Positions 3,205-15,121 of a stretch of DNA of 64,000 nt are shown here, piece by piece. Source of the stretch: a virus; IMG/VR virus record IMGVR_UViG_3300027896_000017, positions 1 to 64,000 of that record. The stretch is one strand, 5' to 3'. Within the stretch, counting starts at the first letter, position 1. Each line of letters opens with the position of its first letter. The notes under the pieces are model-generated. The model ran no database searches and was not told the origin of the DNA. It saw nothing but the letters and a program-made list of their open reading frames with translations. A program made the position numbers and the translations under genes.

Positions 3205-3975
3205 ATATTTTTGTATAGTAAGTGTATCGTATCGCATGGTATTGTGCCATCAAGTAAATGTTATGTATTGTGCCATCTAGTAACGTAATGCGTAATAAAA
3301 TCTAGTAAAGTAAATGTAAGGTGTAACATAGTACCGTCTAGTAAATGCGCTGTAATGTAGTGTCATATCAAGTAAATGTAAAGTAAAGTCGGGCAGGGTC
3401 TCGTTATGTGACGTTCTGTAAATGTAAAGTAAAGTGGTATGGTATGATGTTTAGTAAATATTGGGTTTTGTATAGTTGTGTAAATTTGTAAATGTTGGGT
3501 AGGGTGTTGTTATGTGAAATTCTGTAAATGTAAAGTAGTGTAAGGTAGAGTAGAGTGTTATTGCGTAAATGTATAGTAAAGTTGAGTATTGCTATGTAAA
3601 TGCAATGTGTAGTATTAAGTAATGTTTGGTAAATGTATTGTCATGTTGCATTAAGTAATGTGTGGTGCCGTAAATGTAATGCGTTGTATAGTATTATCTA
3701 GTAAATGTAACGTGAGGTCACATGATGTAAAGTAATATCTAGTAAATGTATGGTCGCGTGAAGTATCATGCAGTAAATGTTTTGTTATATAAAATTAAGT
3801 TGAGTATTATAAATGTAAGATAAAGTAAAGTAACGTGCATTGTAATATAAATGTAGGGTGAAGTCTAATGAAGTAAAGTTCAGTAAATGTGCTGTAAAGT
3901 AGCGTGAAGTAATGTTCAGTAAATGTGCTGTGTCGTGTTGTAAAGTATCGTCACGTAATGTTATGTAAATGTAAT
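3205..3975 (+). repeat. GTNNN pentamer array 1
   Basis: About 770 nt with no gene. GT (less often AT) recurs every 5 nt, and the hexamer GTAAAT breaks the register by +1 every 31-46 nt. In 3853-3971 the GT positions run 3853, 3858, 3863, then 3873, 3878, 3883, 3889, 3894 and so on to 3965, 3971. The +6 steps occur only at GTAAAT (3883, 3919, 3965). About 20 GTAAAT units are present, and the plus strand is nearly free of C. This is not CRISPR because the units are not uniform. It could be an array of protein sites on DNA or on a GU-rich transcript. Confidence 0.9.
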
Positions 3976-4001
3976 TTAAACCTTAAATAAGGAGACGTAA
4001 A

Positions 4002-4535
4002 ATGGCTAAAAATGGTAAGGCTTTGGGTGAAAAGCCCATCGAGACAAATGTCAGTTCAGTTATGGGCGTTCGTGGGGAATGGTTGAAAGACAAATCTTCC
4101 TCTCTTTCATTTCAGGAATGGCTTGTTCTCAAGTATAACAAACTTGAGGAAACTATTCTTACACTCCAGTCTGAGAGGGGTATTTTGAAAACTGAAATCA
4201 GCGATCTTATGAAAGAAAACGAGGCAATTAAAACAGAAGTTGCCTCATTGAAACCGAAGATCGATGAGTTGAAGCTTGAAAAAGATCTAATGACCAAAAC
4301 TATATCAGAATTAAAGGCCGAAAATGAAACGCTTTCAAAGATCATTCCTTTTCCCAATATAAATAATCTCGCCAATGCTGAAGCTGACGCTGTGCTTCAA
4401 GCTGAAGAAGAAGCTGAAATTCATGCTGATGAAGAGGCTGCTGCTGAAATTGTTGCTGAAGCTGACGCTATACTTCAAGCTGAAGAAGAGGCTGCGATTC
4501 AGGCTGATGAAGAAATTGGTCCGTCTGCCGCATAG
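4002..4535 (+). CDS. Coiled-coil protein with acidic repeats
   Basis: 177 residues with a strong AAGGAG site. Residues about 45-115 are heptad-like coiled coil (LEETILTLQSERGILKTEISDL...). The C-terminal 55 residues hold two copies of an Ala/Glu/Asp repeat (AEADAxLQAEEEAxIxADEE). A structural or scaffolding role is plausible but unproven. It lies directly after array 1, whose last hexamer is about 30 nt upstream of its start. Confidence 0.85.
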   Translation: MAKNGKALGEKPIETNVSSVMGVRGEWLKDKSSSLSFQEWLVLKYNKLEETILTLQSERGILKTEISDLMKENEAIKTEVASLKPKIDELKLEKDLMTKTISELKAENETLSKIIPFPNINNLANAEADAVLQAEEEAEIHADEEAAAEIVAEADAILQAEEEAAIQADEEIGPSAA

Positions 4536-4595
4536 TTTAATAAAGGGGATTAACAATCCCTCTATTTTTTTTAATCATTAAAACAAGGAGTTTAT

Positions 4596-4904
4596 ATGAG
4601 AGATGTGGACAATACTTTAACCAGTCAAAATGATATTGATGCTATGGAGTCGTGCACGGATATTACCAAAATTGCGATACTCAGGGCCATTGAGGAATTG
4701 AAACGTCAATTTATAACAGAAAGAATTGAAGCGGGTAAATTAAAAGTCCAGTATGCTGAAAAGGTAGCTGAGATTGCCAAACTTAAAATTGAATTAAGCA
4801 AACTTTCTGAAGCAAATCAAGTTCTTGAAGAAATAAGAAGCGCAATAGAGGAAACTAATAACTATTTAAAAAATGAATCAGAGAGAGGTTCAGAAAATGA
4901 GTAA
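4596..4904 (+). CDS. Coiled-coil small protein
   Basis: 102 residues starting MRDVDNTLTSQ, with AAGGAG 7 nt upstream. Residues about 28-100 are a continuous heptad region (AILRAIEELKRQF...). The style resembles the upstream coiled-coil gene, suggesting partners. The stop overlaps the next gene's start. Confidence 0.8.
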   Translation: MRDVDNTLTSQNDIDAMESCTDITKIAILRAIEELKRQFITERIEAGKLKVQYAEKVAEIAKLKIELSKLSEANQVLEEIRSAIEETNNYLKNESERGSENE

Positions 4905-5067
4905 AGAAACATCATTCAAGGATTGTAAGAAAAGTTGTAAAAATGGTTGTATTTGCGATGGTTATTGTTTTAAAACTGGTTATGAATATGCTTTAATGGA
5001 TATGCAAAGTTTGCCTGAATCCAAGAATAGAAAAAAGAATAGAAATAAACTTATTAATAAACGTTAA
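4897..5067 (+). CDS. Cysteine-rich basic small protein
   Basis: 56 residues from ATG 4897, overlapping the previous stop by 8 nt. CKKSCKNGCICDGYC forms a dense cysteine cluster likely to bind a metal. The C-terminus is lysine/arginine-rich. The function is unknown. Confidence 0.7.
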   Translation: MSKETSFKDCKKSCKNGCICDGYCFKTGYEYALMDMQSLPESKNRKKNRNKLINKR

Positions 5068-5085
5068 TAATGGTTATACTTTTAT

Positions 5086-5108
5086 TATTTGTGGTATAAC
5101 CACAATAG
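5086..5108 (+). promoter_or_regulatory. Extended -10 promoter motif
   Basis: TGGTATAAC (5092-5100) is followed by ACAATAGAG, matching the motif seen before many RNAs in this window. It sits directly upstream of a folded RNA and has no recognisable -35. Confidence 0.6.
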
Positions 5109-5123
5109 AGCAACGGTCTTATT

Positions 5124-5269
5124 TTAAACTGCTGGATACTACGCGAATCGGAGCCTATTAACAGCCTAAGATCTCACCGAAGATACCTGGTGCGTTATTA
5201 GCGTCGTGTGCGGACTATTGCCCCCAAAAGCAATAAGATCTATCGACAAACCGAGGACCAGCAGTTTAA
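5124..5269 (+). ncRNA. Closed structured RNA, possible 23S domain II piece
   Basis: TTAAACTGCTGG (5124-5135) is perfectly complementary to CCAGCAGTTTAA (5258-5269). Internal strings GCGAATCGGAG, CAGCCTAAG and GGTGCG...CGTCGTG resemble 23S nt about 985-1060 in my memory, with gaps. The similarity is weak to moderate. The promoter motif lies just upstream, and a gene starts 35 nt after the closing stem. Confidence 0.6.
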
Positions 5270-5303
5270 TTTTTTCTTACACTTTTCTTTGAAAGGAATT
5301 AAC

Positions 5304-5510
5304 ATGAATATTGTTAATAAAATATTACTGCTTTTTTATTCAGTCTTGTTTGGATTAATATTGGCCTTTCCAGTCAAATGGTGTTGGAACTGGTCAATTG
5401 CCATTATATTTGGTCTGCCGGATATTACGTGGTGGCAGGCGTGGTGTCTTCAATTTTTAACTGCTGTTTTAATAAGGTCAACAAACAATATAACAACGAA
5501 AGAAAAATAA
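5304..5510 (+). CDS. Small membrane protein, Trp-rich
   Basis: 68 residues from ATG 5304 with GAAAGGAATT upstream. There is a hydrophobic segment at 5-23, followed by a tryptophan-rich region (WCWNWSIAIIFGLPDITWWQAW). A membrane location is likely and the role unknown. It is followed immediately by pentamer array 2. Confidence 0.7.
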   Translation: MNIVNKILLLFYSVLFGLILAFPVKWCWNWSIAIIFGLPDITWWQAWCLQFLTAVLIRSTNNITTKEK

Positions 5511-5862
5511 ATGTCGAGTAAGATAATGCGCTGTTCAGTAAATGTATTGTAAAGTTGTATACGATCAAATAGGGTGACGTTAATGTAAAGTAGGGTGGAG
5601 TTATGTTTGGTAAATGTTTTATACAGTAAAGTACCATAAAGTTATTATATGACGTTAGTGTTAAGTGAAGTGCCGTTTTGTGTGGTAAATGTTCTGTGGA
5701 GCCATGTTATATGGAATATCGTTTTGTGACGTTAATGTATTGTGTGATGGCATAAAATCTAGTAAATGTATAGTAAATGTGTGGTCGAGTCAAATGTAGT
5801 TTAGTAAATGTGCTGTTGGGTAAAATATAGTTCAGTAAATGTATTGTTATATTGTATTCAGA
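5511..5862 (+). repeat. GTNNN pentamer array 2
   Basis: A second block has the same rule as at 3.2-4.0 kb: GTNNN/ATNNN every 5 nt, reset by GTAAAT or GTTAAT. About seven GTAAAT resets are present, for example before GTATTGTAAAG and GTGCTGTTGG. There is no coding potential and little C on the plus strand. Confidence 0.85.
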
Positions 5863-5867
5863 TATCG

Positions 5868-5992
5868 AGGCGCACGATTGCGCAAAGGTCAGGCTTTTAT
5901 TATCATAGTTCTCTAACCTTACCTGGAGAACAATATGCGATTTGAAAGCAGGTAAACTTGACCGGCAAGTAACGTAGCCTGCGTTACTTCCA
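5868..5992 (+). ncRNA. Structured RNA, possible 23S nt ~2330-2390 piece
   Basis: There are inner helices such as GTAACG/CGTTAC, and GGTCA paired to TGACC. GAAAGCAGGT (about 5947) followed by GACCGG recalls 23S near nt 2375-2390. One 10-nt match plus a short neighbour is only suggestive. Confidence 0.4.
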
Positions 5993-6070
5993 ATATATTT
6001 TTGGTCTATTACTTGACAAATAATAATTTAAAAAGATATTACATAATATAAACGAATAAAAGGAGGAAAA

Positions 6071-6661
6071 ATGAGTTTTTGGTCTATTGCATCAAAAGAA
6101 CTAATAGTAAAAGACTCTCCATCTTCGACGGTGATGGCGCTAAAAAACTTGAGAAATTTTCATGCTACGGATGGCGCTTCTATAAATTTTGAATGTGCAA
6201 TTAATGTAGCGAAAGTATACGAAGAGTATTGAAAAGATGTACATAAACCAGCTTGGAGTGATTTAGTAAGAGTTGGCAAGGCCCATGCTAAAGTTATCCA
6301 TAAATTTGAAGGTAGTTGCCCTCCATGGTGGCTGTATGAAGTATCCAAGTACGACAAAATGGAAGGGATATCTTTTAATTGGGTAAGTGAGCCCAAAGAG
6401 CCTCTTAATTTTGAAATAGGTATGAAATACTATCTATCAAATAAACGCTTGATAGAATTAGGGCAAAGAAAATGGATATTCAAATCCATTTTGAACTTTG
6501 CTCTTGATAAAGCTCTTAGTGATGTGCTTGGGGCAGCAGATCAAATACTTCGGGTAGTGGTGGGAGATAAAAACTACTTGTATAAATTCGAAGAATATTA
6601 TCAACATTGGAAACAGATTTCATTTTGTGATAATTCGATAAAGGTTATTATGCTGAGTTAA
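6071..6661 (+). pseudogene. Gene with an in-frame UGA, unknown function
   Basis: From ATG 6071 (AGGAGG site, 5 nt spacing) the frame runs 196 codons but is cut by TGA at 6230-6232 (codon 54, context YEEY-stop-KDVHKPAW). After it the same frame continues as a plausible protein to 6661. Either the gene is freshly broken, the UGA is read through, or the downstream part restarts (ATG 6359). The product is not recognised. Confidence 0.6.
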
Positions 6662-6701
6662 TTATTCTTTTACAACAATTTATTCAACGATAGGAGAAAG
6701 A

Positions 6702-6911
6702 ATTATAAAAGCGGAAAATAGATACAATAAGATAAATGTTTTCGTGAGGAAAATGCTTAAAGAAATTAAAAACAGAAATAATGACATTAGTGAGATCAAA
6801 ATGAATTATCCACAAAATATTTCCATAAATGATATGGAAATAATAGAGGGAATATTTAACGGACTGGGATATAAAATATCTCCTAAAATTTCCTCATTAC
6901 AATTAATGTAA
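6702..6911 (+). CDS. Small protein with probable AUU start
   Basis: An open frame of 69 codons lies behind AGGAG with a 5-nt spacer, then ATT ATA AAA GCG. No ATG or GTG sits at a usable distance. The first internal ATG is codon 17. The encoded protein is basic and helical, then IINDMEIIEGIFNGLGYKI-like. The same arrangement occurs at 14216. Unknown function. Confidence 0.5.
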   Translation: MIKAENRYNKINVFVRKMLKEIKNRNNDISEIKMNYPQNISINDMEIIEGIFNGLGYKISPKISSLQLM

Positions 6912-6917
6912 AATTTT

Positions 6918-6998
6918 AATTAGGATAGTTGTTCCGCCGTGCCGGTTTAATGAGATACAAGTTGAAACTGTGAGCAGGCCCGAACAATTATCCTAATT
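6918..6998 (+). ncRNA. Closed hairpin RNA, possible 23S domain II piece
   Basis: AATTAGGATAGTTGTTC (from 6918) pairs with GAACAATTATCCTAATT (6982-6998). The inside holds CCGGT...GTTGAA...CCGAAC in the same order as 23S nt about 670-735. Each block is only 5-6 nt, so the match is weak. Confidence 0.55.
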
Positions 6999-6999
6999 A

Positions 7000-7510
7000 A
7001 GCAAATTGTAAATGTATTGTACTGTGAGGTCCTGTAAATGTATATGTTGTTTGGTTTAGTGCTGTAGGTGTGTTGTGAAGTATTATTTGGTAATGTGCCG
7101 TAAATGTGCCGTGTTGTGAAGTCGGGCGGCGTAAATGTACTGTGTTGTTAGGTCTGGTGGCATAAATGTAAGGTACAGTTGAGTAAAGTCTAGTAAATGT
7201 AAGGTACTGTATGATAAAGTACTGTGTTATAAATGTGATGTGAAATCGCGTGAGGTGTTGTAACAGTAAGTAATATCGCGTATCGTAAATGTCTGTGTTG
7301 TTTTGTTAATAAATAAAATATAGTATTGTAAATGTGTCGCGTAAGATCATGTAAATGTGAAGTAAAGTAGCGTAACGTTTAGTAAATGTATAGTAAAGTA
7401 AGACCGCGTAAATGTGAAGTAATGCCGAGTAACGTAAGGTTATGTAAATGTGGAGTAAGGTGGAGTGAGGTGCTGTATAGTAGAGTTTTGTAAATGTATT
7501 ATATTATTAT
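7000..7510 (+). repeat. GTNNN pentamer array 3
   Basis: A third array with the same 5-nt register and about 14 GTAAAT/ATAAAT resets. Example: GTGAA GTAAA GTAGC GTAAC GTTTA GTAAAT near 7360-7390. It lies upstream of the gene at 7653, as array 1 lies upstream of the gene at 4002. Confidence 0.88.
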
Positions 7511-7652
7511 ATTAAATAAACACTTCATTATTTATAGAAAGGAAACTATCATCAAAATCCAAAAATTCTAATTGTTTCAGCATGTCTTGAAGAAGTTGGC
7601 ACTCAAACAAAAAAAACTGCCGACACAAACGTTCATTGAAAGGAAGTTTTCC

Positions 7653-8345
7653 ATGGAAGCGAAGAAAGTTCTCAAAATCGAAGCAGAGTTCTTAACAGAA
7701 TGCTTGGGAACAAACCCAAGTGACCCCAATGTTTATGCGTCATGGATTGCTGAAGAGGCCCCTGACAGGGCCACAACAGCCAGTGATATTGCAGGTATGA
7801 CCACCACGATGGAAGTTCATCGTGCCCAACTTCGCGCTGCCGCAGAAGCGAATCCTAATGCGCCTGCAGTAGAAGAAGTTGAAGATGCAAATCTTATCGA
7901 TCCCAAAGGAAAAACTATCTTCTTAAAAACAGAAGATGGCAAGCCCTATCTTCCCGCATATATGATTAAGGGCTTTCTCAAGTCGTCTGCCAAAGCTCAG
8001 AATCGTATCCCTGGCAGCAGAGTCAGTGGCATAAAGGCCAACCAGCAGGTCATAACTGACCTGATTTTTGTAACCCCTGCCAAGGTCATGCTGGAACTGC
8101 CCAGCGGAGCCACCATTGGTGAGCTTCAGCGCCCTCTCTGCATTGCAAATTCGCCTACTGGCCCCAGGACAGCCATCAGTGTCAGCGAGTCTGTTCCAGT
8201 TGGAACTAAATTCAAATTCCAAGTGGAAATGTTAAGGGGAGATCTAGAACCTCTGGCAAAGGATCTACTGGACTACGGCGAGCGTAAGGGCATAGGACAG
8301 TGGAGAAATGCAGGTAAGGGGTCGTTCTCTTATCGCATTGTATAG
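7653..8345 (+). CDS. Conserved phage protein, RAMP-like features
   Basis: 230 residues from ATG 7653, with GAAAGGAAG upstream. A longer frame start at 7572 lacks a site. GKPYLPAYMIKGFLKSSAKA (about 115-135) and a C-terminal glycine-rich GIGQWRNAGKGSF recall the G-loop of RAMP/Cas7-type RNA-binding folds. I also recall similar proteins of unknown function in other phages. Base composition is less AT-rich than its neighbours, suggesting separate acquisition. I would not assign a CRISPR role, as no cas genes are near. Confidence 0.75.
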   Translation: MEAKKVLKIEAEFLTECLGTNPSDPNVYASWIAEEAPDRATTASDIAGMTTTMEVHRAQLRAAAEANPNAPAVEEVEDANLIDPKGKTIFLKTEDGKPYLPAYMIKGFLKSSAKAQNRIPGSRVSGIKANQQVITDLIFVTPAKVMLELPSGATIGELQRPLCIANSPTGPRTAISVSESVPVGTKFKFQVEMLRGDLEPLAKDLLDYGERKGIGQWRNAGKGSFSYRIV

Positions 8346-10607: not shown

Positions 10608-11534
10608 ATGTCATCCTGGCATAGCTATCCATCTGTTTACGCGTTGGGGCACAAGGCTATAGAGAATTTATTCAAAGACCCTGTTCTGGTTGAGGAAAAG
10701 ATCGATGGCAGCCAGATGTCTTTTGGTAGATTTAACAAAGAATTGAAAGTTAAATCAAAGGGTAAAGAAATGTATCCTGAAGCGCCAGAAAATTTATTTG
10801 AAGAAGCTGTCAAATTTGTATCTACTCTCGATCTTCATGATGGTTGGACTTATCGCGGAGAATGCCTTAAGAAACCACATCATAACGCATTGGTTTATGA
10901 TAGGGTTCCTAAAGGTAATGTAATCCTGTTTGATATTAATACTGATGAGGAACAATACCTTTCAAGGAAAGATAAAGAAATTGAGGCTACTCGTTTAGGT
11001 ATTGAAATTGTGCCAGTTATGTATGAAGGCATGATTTCTACTCCAGAGGAAGTGCTTATCTTCCTTGAAAAACAATCTATTCTGGGTGGCCAGAAGGTTG
11101 AAGGTGTGGTTATTAAAAATTACGCTCAGTTTGGGCGCGACAAGAAGGTGCTCATGGGGAAGTATGTCTCAGAGCAATTTAAGGAGGTTAACAGGGAGAA
11201 CTGGAAAGAAGCCAATCCTCAACAGGGGGATATCATTACTCGCCTTATAAACGCTTACAAGACGCCTGCAAGGTGGAATAAGGCTGTTCTGCACCTGGAG
11301 GAGCGTGGCGAGCTTGAGAGGTCTCCTCGTGATATAGGAAAGCTTATAAACGAGGTTAAGGCTGATTTAAAGAAAGAGTGCGAAGAAGAGATTAAGCAAG
11401 CCTTCTACGACTGGGGGATTGGCAATATTTTAAGAGGGGCTGTAACAAGACTTCCTGAGTGGTATAAAGAGGAATTGTTGAAGTTACAATTCCATATTAA
11501 ACCAGAGAATCAGCAAGATGTTAAACCCAGCTGA
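10608..11534 (+). CDS. RNA ligase (Rnl2-like nucleotidyltransferase)
   Basis: 308 residues. It would join a 3'-OH to a 5'-phosphate RNA end using ATP. The motif EEKIDGSQ places the AMP-accepting lysine at residue 31. Motif III/IIIa is TYRGECL...VILFDI, motif IV EGVVIKNY and motif V VLMGKYVSEQFKE, all in the family's order. The C-terminal 100 residues are helical, as in Rnl2-type enzymes. Start ATG with GAAAGGAAT upstream. With the phosphoesterase and kinase genes at 16.8-17.7 kb it makes a complete RNA-repair set. It sits immediately upstream of the tmRNA. Confidence 0.93.
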   Translation: MSSWHSYPSVYALGHKAIENLFKDPVLVEEKIDGSQMSFGRFNKELKVKSKGKEMYPEAPENLFEEAVKFVSTLDLHDGWTYRGECLKKPHHNALVYDRVPKGNVILFDINTDEEQYLSRKDKEIEATRLGIEIVPVMYEGMISTPEEVLIFLEKQSILGGQKVEGVVIKNYAQFGRDKKVLMGKYVSEQFKEVNRENWKEANPQQGDIITRLINAYKTPARWNKAVLHLEERGELERSPRDIGKLINEVKADLKKECEEEIKQAFYDWGIGNILRGAVTRLPEWYKEELLKLQFHIKPENQQDVKPS

Positions 11535-14215: not shown

Positions 14216-15121
14216 ATTAATCATACTCAATGGTTTGCTCAGAACAATAAATTCCAACAACATGAACAATGGCTGGTTGATAATGTAATATTAGAAACTA
14301 TAGTTGGGTCTCATGCATATGGATGTCAGACGCCACAATCTGATTATGATTTGGCCGCAATAGTATTACCAAGATGTGAACATCTAAATCCACAAAAATT
14401 CGGGTTCATACTTGGGTTCGATAATTTGCCAAATTTTAAACGTAAAGAAATTAAAGGCAAAAAAGTCGATATAAATGGTAAATTATTTGAGGCTGAATGG
14501 ATATCATTAATAGAATTCTTTGTTCAGGCAGGGTTAAAAGGGTCACCTAATCTTATTGAAATTCTTTTTGCAAACAGAGAGTTTGTTACTGTAGGAACAA
14601 AAATGGGGTGGCGTCTTCGTGATAATAGACGTTTATTCCTTTCAATGAAAACATATCATGCGTTTCGTGGGTATGCGTGTGGTCAAATGCATAGAATAAG
14701 ACAGCGTAATCCTGAAACAGAAGATCGTAAGGCTATGGTAGCCAAATATGGATACGATCTTAAAATGGCTTTTCATACTTTACGTTTAATGGATCAAATA
14801 GATCAAATACTCACCATTAATGATATTGATTTAATGAGAAATAAAGAAGAATGCAAATTAATGCGCAATGGAGAATGGGGAGATTTTGATAGATTTGATA
14901 AAGAGTTTCAAAAACGTATGGATCATCTTGAAGAGCTTTCCAGGAAATGCAACTTGCCGCCTCAACCACAACAAGGGGCGTTAAAGCAGCTTTTAGTGAG
15001 TATACTGGAAGAACACTATCCTGTTGACGAAATGATACAAATGACAGATGAGTATGTTTCTGCAAAACAAGTAAATGATAAGTTGGATGAAATAATTAAT
15101 TTAATAAAGAAACCTCAATAA
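14216..15121 (+). CDS. Predicted nucleotidyltransferase, AUU start
   Basis: About 301 residues. VGSHAYGCQTPQSDYDL (residues 30-46) is the GS...SDxD signature of the polymerase-beta-type nucleotidyltransferase superfamily, with Asp43 and Asp45 as metal ligands. An ATG-only call would start far downstream and lose this motif. The frame opens only at 14207, and AGGAGG (14205-14210) is spaced 5 nt from ATT 14216, so an AUU start is strongly implied. The substrate is unknown; related phage proteins are uncharacterised to my knowledge. The C-terminal half is helical. Confidence 0.85.
   Translation: MNHTQWFAQNNKFQQHEQWLVDNVILETIVGSHAYGCQTPQSDYDLAAIVLPRCEHLNPQKFGFILGFDNLPNFKRKEIKGKKVDINGKLFEAEWISLIEFFVQAGLKGSPNLIEILFANREFVTVGTKMGWRLRDNRRLFLSMKTYHAFRGYACGQMHRIRQRNPETEDRKAMVAKYGYDLKMAFHTLRLMDQIDQILTINDIDLMRNKEECKLMRNGEWGDFDRFDKEFQKRMDHLEELSRKCNLPPQPQQGALKQLLVSILEEHYPVDEMIQMTDEYVSAKQVNDKLDEIINLIKKPQ

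Follow-up and report, generated by a model that had tools for sequence, protein, structure and literature searches.

In the Viral Interference Programmable Repeat (VIPR) systems, described in a 2026 preprint (bioRxiv 10.64898/2026.04.26.720920, PMC13142463), a small phage RAMP protein, Vipr, is accompanied by RNAs of tandem YNNGG repeats. These RNAs bind double-stranded DNA discontinuously: the NN letters of each repeat pair, and a single base of the target is passed over. The systems fall into seven types, the arrays of which differ, and type II includes Escherichia phage SUSP1 and a Pseudomonas fulva prophage, the vrRNAs of SUSP1 being ~100 nt long with 9-16 units. The main text gives structured invariable 3' tails for the type II clades only, and refers to figs S17-S18 for other, related motifs and for arrays that are staggered and overlap (PMC13142463).

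The window analyzed here is a stretch of 64,000 nucleotides from a 116.8-kb viral record. As in VIPR, a small phage RAMP gene lies beside non-coding arrays of 5-nt units, in which a conserved G-pyrimidine is combined with hypervariable letters, and we consider it very probable that this is a phage-encoded VIPR locus with arrays that serve as guide RNAs. There are differences as well. The GY of the window units is not preceded by a constant G, the fifth base being free where VIPR has strict GGY/NN; a hexamer (GYRANG, here GTAAAT) that is absent from the main text of the preprint recurs every 3-9 units; and the arrays are long and continuous, with no recognized 3' tail and no vap gene identified. 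On inspection for an invariable tail, the three window arrays were found to end in unlike sequence. The system may be one of the seven types of the preprint (PMC13142463). The statement in the preliminary description that no described element with this grammar was known was correct until the preprint appeared in 2026.

Class 1 CRISPR-Cas filaments (type VII Cas7, Csm3, Cmr4) share the protein fold with the present system and would share the RNA-bound helical oligomer with its periodic thumb; however, here there are neither palindromic repeats nor a cas operon, the RNA period is 5-nt rather than 6-nt, and the guide is discontinuous. A 5-nt spacing of an RNA motif is also found in TRAP, an oligomer for which (G/U)AG repeats every 5 nt are the RNA motif. 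The TRAP protein is unrelated, and the arrays considered here consist of GYNNN units, up to hundreds of them, with variable letters.

Structure of the arrays

The 5-nt period of three GTNNN arrays, claimed in the preliminary description, is evident from the number of GT pairs at lag 5. In block 3210-3980, there are 75 such pairs, compared to 22.5 +/- 4.2 (maximum 36) in 1000 dinucleotide shuffles; the corresponding values are 27 versus 8.5 +/- 2.6 (maximum 17) for block 5515-5860 and 53 versus 15.9 +/- 3.6 (maximum 29) for block 7005-7505. The signal is absent from both strands of the 64-kb window outside these blocks. Matches to strict array patterns in the 116.8-kb record are confined to the same blocks and are all forward, and a reversed-pattern control yielded zero matches. 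The earlier judgment that these sequences are not CRISPR, not satellite and not coding is correct.

Parsing into 5- and 6-nt units produced 315 units, 307 of which start with [GA][TC] and 243 with GT. GT is replaced by AT, as had been noticed before, and also by GC, both being transitions. The fifth base (A37 C16 G15 T33), which precedes the next G, is free, and C makes up 7% of the array letters. Shifts of phase by +1 do occur at GTAAAT, although not only there as originally proposed: together, GTAAAT, ATAAAT and GTTAAT make up 42 of the 55 six-base units, and a few shifts fall at irregular places. When parsed from GTAAAT, the arrays resolve into clean 5-nt units; 25 out of the 35 gaps that separate consecutive GTAAAT hexamers equal 1 mod 5 (7 expected), as do 32 of 41 when ATAAAT is counted too. 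The commonest gaps include 26 in addition to the 31, 36, 41 and 46 reported earlier, and the variant hexamer GTTAAT accounts for part of the double resets (gaps 62, 72, 77). RNA of positions 7008-7307, within array 3, folds no better than chance (z +0.70).

Table 1. Arrays and genes of the putative VIPR locus (positions in the window)
Feature	Position	Strand	Description
vrRNA array 1	3213..3975	+	~147 GTNNN units, GTAAAT punctuation, non-coding; lag-5 statistics and parse
Example module	3372..3417	+	GTAAAT then GTAAA GTAAA GTCGG GCAGG GTCTC GTTAT GTGAC GTTCT
177-aa coiled-coil ORF	4002..4535	+	between arrays 1 and 2
vrRNA array 2	5513..~5870	+	~70 units; GTAAAT and GTTAAT; more degenerate; lag-5 statistics and parse; 3' edge uncertain, parse extends to 5897
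vrRNA array 3	7008..7500	+	95 units, 18 six-base; lag-5 statistics and parse
vipr	7653..8345	+	230-aa RAMP/Cas7-like protein; ATG 7653, AAAGGAAG just before start

The vipr gene and its relatives

The vipr ORF, a single copy in the record, starts 153 bp past array 3; a longer, TTG-started ORF (7572-8345) is a less likely choice of start. A profile search of PDB sequences with the vipr family detected type VII Cas7 (E 0.0024). The AlphaFold2 model of Vipr (pLDDT 77, from nine aligned sequences only) matched in Foldseek type VII Cas7 (8z4j_J, E 4.2e-7), followed by Csm3/Cmr4 chains, and the predicted fold is thus that of Cas7/RAMP proteins, with an RRM core. The earlier suggestion of a GU-rich scaffold for a phage RRM protein pointed in the right direction, the candidate partner being the RAMP protein encoded after array 3. 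Conserved motifs of the family are KGF(L/F)K and the glycine-rich GLGQWRNxGxGxF at the C-terminus. In the SUSP1 sequence (L301), read directly, vipr and four arrays are found at the expected place. SUSP1 Vipr aligns with the window family collinearly from end to end in hhalign (E 7.6e-4, 23% identity); since it is missed by a plain HMM search with the window family (E 1.8), the two are distant branches.

The search of other phage genomes that the preliminary description had called for recovered the same grammar beside vipr-family genes. A first, looser pattern scan gave mostly chance matches. A pattern of two hexamers plus GT units identified two more, unrelated phages with identical grammar (L136, a 121-kb contig, and L138); both, found by pattern alone, encode a vipr-family gene in the fetched locus. 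Conversely, the window Vipr protein used as a query retrieved nine loci with 5-nt arrays directly downstream of the gene. A family profile search detected 158 relatives in viral contigs, of which 80 were retrieved, and 69 loci in prokaryote genomes, mainly of gut Clostridia; other bins with relatives are Coriobacteria, Saccharibacteria, Chloroflexi, Omnitrophota and Lokiarchaeota.

Among the 152 distinct loci that encode a vipr relative, a strong same-strand array is located within 2.5 kb of it in 111, and a weaker cut raises this number to 132. Only 1 contig out of 123 controls passes, as do 20 of these loci when read in reverse. The array typically starts ~10 bp past the vipr stop codon, and its score is higher on the gene strand in 127 of the 152 loci and on the opposite strand in 6. 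The motif is GCNNN in GC-rich phages and GTNNN in AT-rich ones; therefore, position 2 is a pyrimidine. Some phages also use GA at the unit start.

Several individual loci deserve mention. An array of ~4.6 kb, by far the longest seen, follows vipr in a 243-kb phage contig (L181, 5738-10395). In one 150-kb contig, the vipr locus is present twice, the copies (L149 and L150) being inverted, through either duplication or an assembly fold-back. In a contig binned as Lokiarchaeota (L286), a short GYNNN array is all that was detected next to the vipr relative.

Neighborhood of the arrays

A search for a vap-like partner found no neighbor family kept with vipr except general phage genes, such as that of the single-stranded DNA-binding protein (SSB), which is encoded close by in 30 of 161 loci. 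No cas genes were detected when neighboring ORFs were scanned against Pfam and PHROGs. In the window, the coiled-coil ORF is a possible accessory (vap) gene. Directly upstream of array 3, positions 6912-7004 form a strong RNA hairpin (MFE -34.8, z -6.5, no Rfam family), which could be a leader or a separate ncRNA. Between the arrays, segments 5858-6000 (z -4.25) and 5088-5272 (z -2.83) fold better than shuffles; neither matches Rfam, where tmRNA alone reached the threshold. A 196-codon frame at 6071-6661 is open but for one in-frame TGA at 6230, which is compatible with a pseudogene, recoding or a sequencing error. Other features of the window are a phage tmRNA (11565-11925, tag AEDYSFAEMLKVA), near which an RNA ligase is encoded at 10608-11534 and a weak RlaP-like RNA-repair match is located at 14351-15121, and a tRNA-like 3' half (2400-2470) with a GGTTCGATTCC T-arm that is not called by ARAGORN and is possibly a tRNA remnant.

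Substitution pattern and turnover of the predicted guides

Representing each unit as G, Y, two middle letters (a and b) and a fifth base (c), we compared the orthologous arrays of one pair of relatives (L144/L148), which had been noticed before testing. The G changed in 0 of 36 cases and the Y in 13 of 37, always between C and T; the two middle letters changed in 9 of 71 cases and the fifth base in 10 of 35. The difference between Y+c (23 of 72) and a+b (9 of 71) is significant (p 0.0085), and divergence at fourfold sites of vipr is 0.28. Thus, in this pair the Y and the fifth base drift near the neutral rate, whereas the two middle letters are constrained. This is the prediction of the VIPR code, with NN read and the other positions serving as a scaffold. 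A triplet (codon) reading of NNN was rejected: the fifth base varies almost independently of the two middle letters, TGA shows no depletion, and the neutral-like drift of the fifth base in the same pair also speaks against it. BLAST counts of substitutions between repeats within arrays were discarded as well, because duplication and turnover are mixed and the positions are not separable.

The Vipr proteins of another pair (L231/L270) are ~96-97% identical, with a fourfold divergence of 0.07; the three variable letters of their arrays differ by ~30% and the G by ~2%. The divergence of array letters far beyond that of fourfold sites indicates that turnover of the guides outruns drift of the gene. 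An all-against-all comparison of arrays found shared guides mainly between related arrays.

The hexamer and the modules

The six-base unit is GTAAAT in the window and GYRANG in the relatives, where it delimits modules of 3 to 9 units (mean 4.8) with a spacing variance of 4.95, compared to 27.8 for a geometric distribution. Across 1337 modules of the relatives, the G is kept in 98% of units 1-2 after the hexamer and in 90% of later units (p 2e-44), a polarity to which the placement of hexamers by the parser may contribute in part. The test of the window alone, anchored on exact GTAAAT, is weaker (p 0.0097). Being fixed in its letters, the hexamer carries little target information. Its regular spacing, the 5'-to-3' polarity of motif fidelity and the fixed letters led us to read it, with moderate confidence, as a mark set at the 5' end of guide modules.

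Proposed mechanism and target searches

In the model that we favor, the arrays would be transcribed as unstructured RNAs, on which copies of Vipr would polymerize with one subunit per 5 nt. This part builds on the array grammar, the RAMP fold and the gene-array linkage reported above. Each subunit would hold the conserved G-pyrimidine of a unit and leave the next two bases free for pairing with DNA, with one target base skipped per subunit, so that each unit would specify two of three target bases; the substitution pattern of one pair is our own evidence here, and the preprint (PMC13142463) is the source for DNA binding under RNA guidance, for the skip of 1 nt and for silencing. The complex would then bind to genes of competing phages or prophages and silence them; that the window Vipr uses its arrays as guides, and against which targets, we infer. 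The hexamer, given the module polarity, may stand at the 5' start of each module of ~4-8 units, where it would signal processing, anchoring or register. Under this reading, which draws on PMC13142463 and on the L144/L148 substitution test, the predicted guide letters of the example module in Table 1 are AA AA CG AG CT TA GA TC, and an example of the target predicted for one module is AANAANCGNAGNCTNTANGANTC.

All array letters were compared to fetched DNA, ~6 Mb when both strands are included, under several rules (skips of 0, 1 or 2 nt, shifted letters, and triplets), and matched as often as shuffled guides. An 8-unit excess under the 1-nt skip was due to loci fetched by those very patterns and to low-complexity matches. 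In viral contigs, two 8-unit window guides had 2 and 14 exact matches and a 9-unit gut-phage guide had 2, with inconsistent coding phase. Searches of genomes gave 0 of 10 genomes with a target and one match with a single mismatch in 300. No natural target emerged from these searches, which took in few guides and, in the large viral collection, exact matches only.

Alternative explanations

A reading that we regard as somewhat less probable, yet serious, retains the system and denies that the hexamer is punctuation: a vrRNA would span several modules, and GYRANG would be the relaxed six-base footprint of one subunit that keeps the RNA-DNA filament in register. The SUSP1 vrRNAs, at ~100 nt and 9-16 units (PMC13142463), exceed a single module of the present arrays, a module as short as 3-4 units would offer only 6-8 guide bases, and hexamer spacing far more regular than random would suit a footprint too. 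Against this reading, module length ranges between 3 and 9 units, and the fidelity of the motif shows polarity relative to each hexamer. We put forward only tentatively the proposal that these loci form a distinct, widespread VIPR class, with short modules each opened by a fixed six-base mark and dozens of them per phage. Such an array would be punctuated in the manner of CRISPR, yet would lack palindromes and tails, and its discontinuous guides would turn over faster than neutral sites.

The other explanations would replace the guide function altogether. The Cas7-like partner, the phage location and the RNA-only arrays could also be expected of a decoy or sponge that, in the manner of RNA anti-CRISPRs, titrates away a RAMP (CRISPR) protein of the host; this is very unlikely, given that the phage's own partner adjoins the array in more than 100 loci and that a decoy would have no need for the observed turnover of variable letters within a constant motif. 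Helical phasing of DNA, one of two suggestions in the preliminary description, would place GT every half turn, with the hexamer correcting the phase. The mean unit of ~5.15 bp does give ~10.3 bp per two units; this idea is nonetheless unsupported and highly improbable, as the arrays follow the gene strand, relatives interchange GC, GT and GA, their modules run from 3 to 9 units with motif quality dependent on module position, the RAMP fold of the linked protein is an RNA-binding one, and the mechanism published for VIPR relies on guide RNA. Finally, GTAAA is among the commonest units, which would fit a decayed, functionless pentanucleotide satellite (GTAAA)n. Neutral decay is expected to strike all five positions alike, whereas in many phages, and always next to members of a single gene family, G and Y are kept while NNN varies freely, and we consider the probability of a satellite negligible.

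Significance

The results provide a search rule for unannotated phage DNA, namely GYNNN units with GYRANG beside a RAMP gene, and evolutionary evidence as to which letters are read, independent of the original VIPR experiments. VIPR is the proposed ancestor of class 1 CRISPR, and the locus of the window and its ~150 relatives, with a fixed hexamer and many short modules per phage, resemble a step towards a repeat-spacer array.
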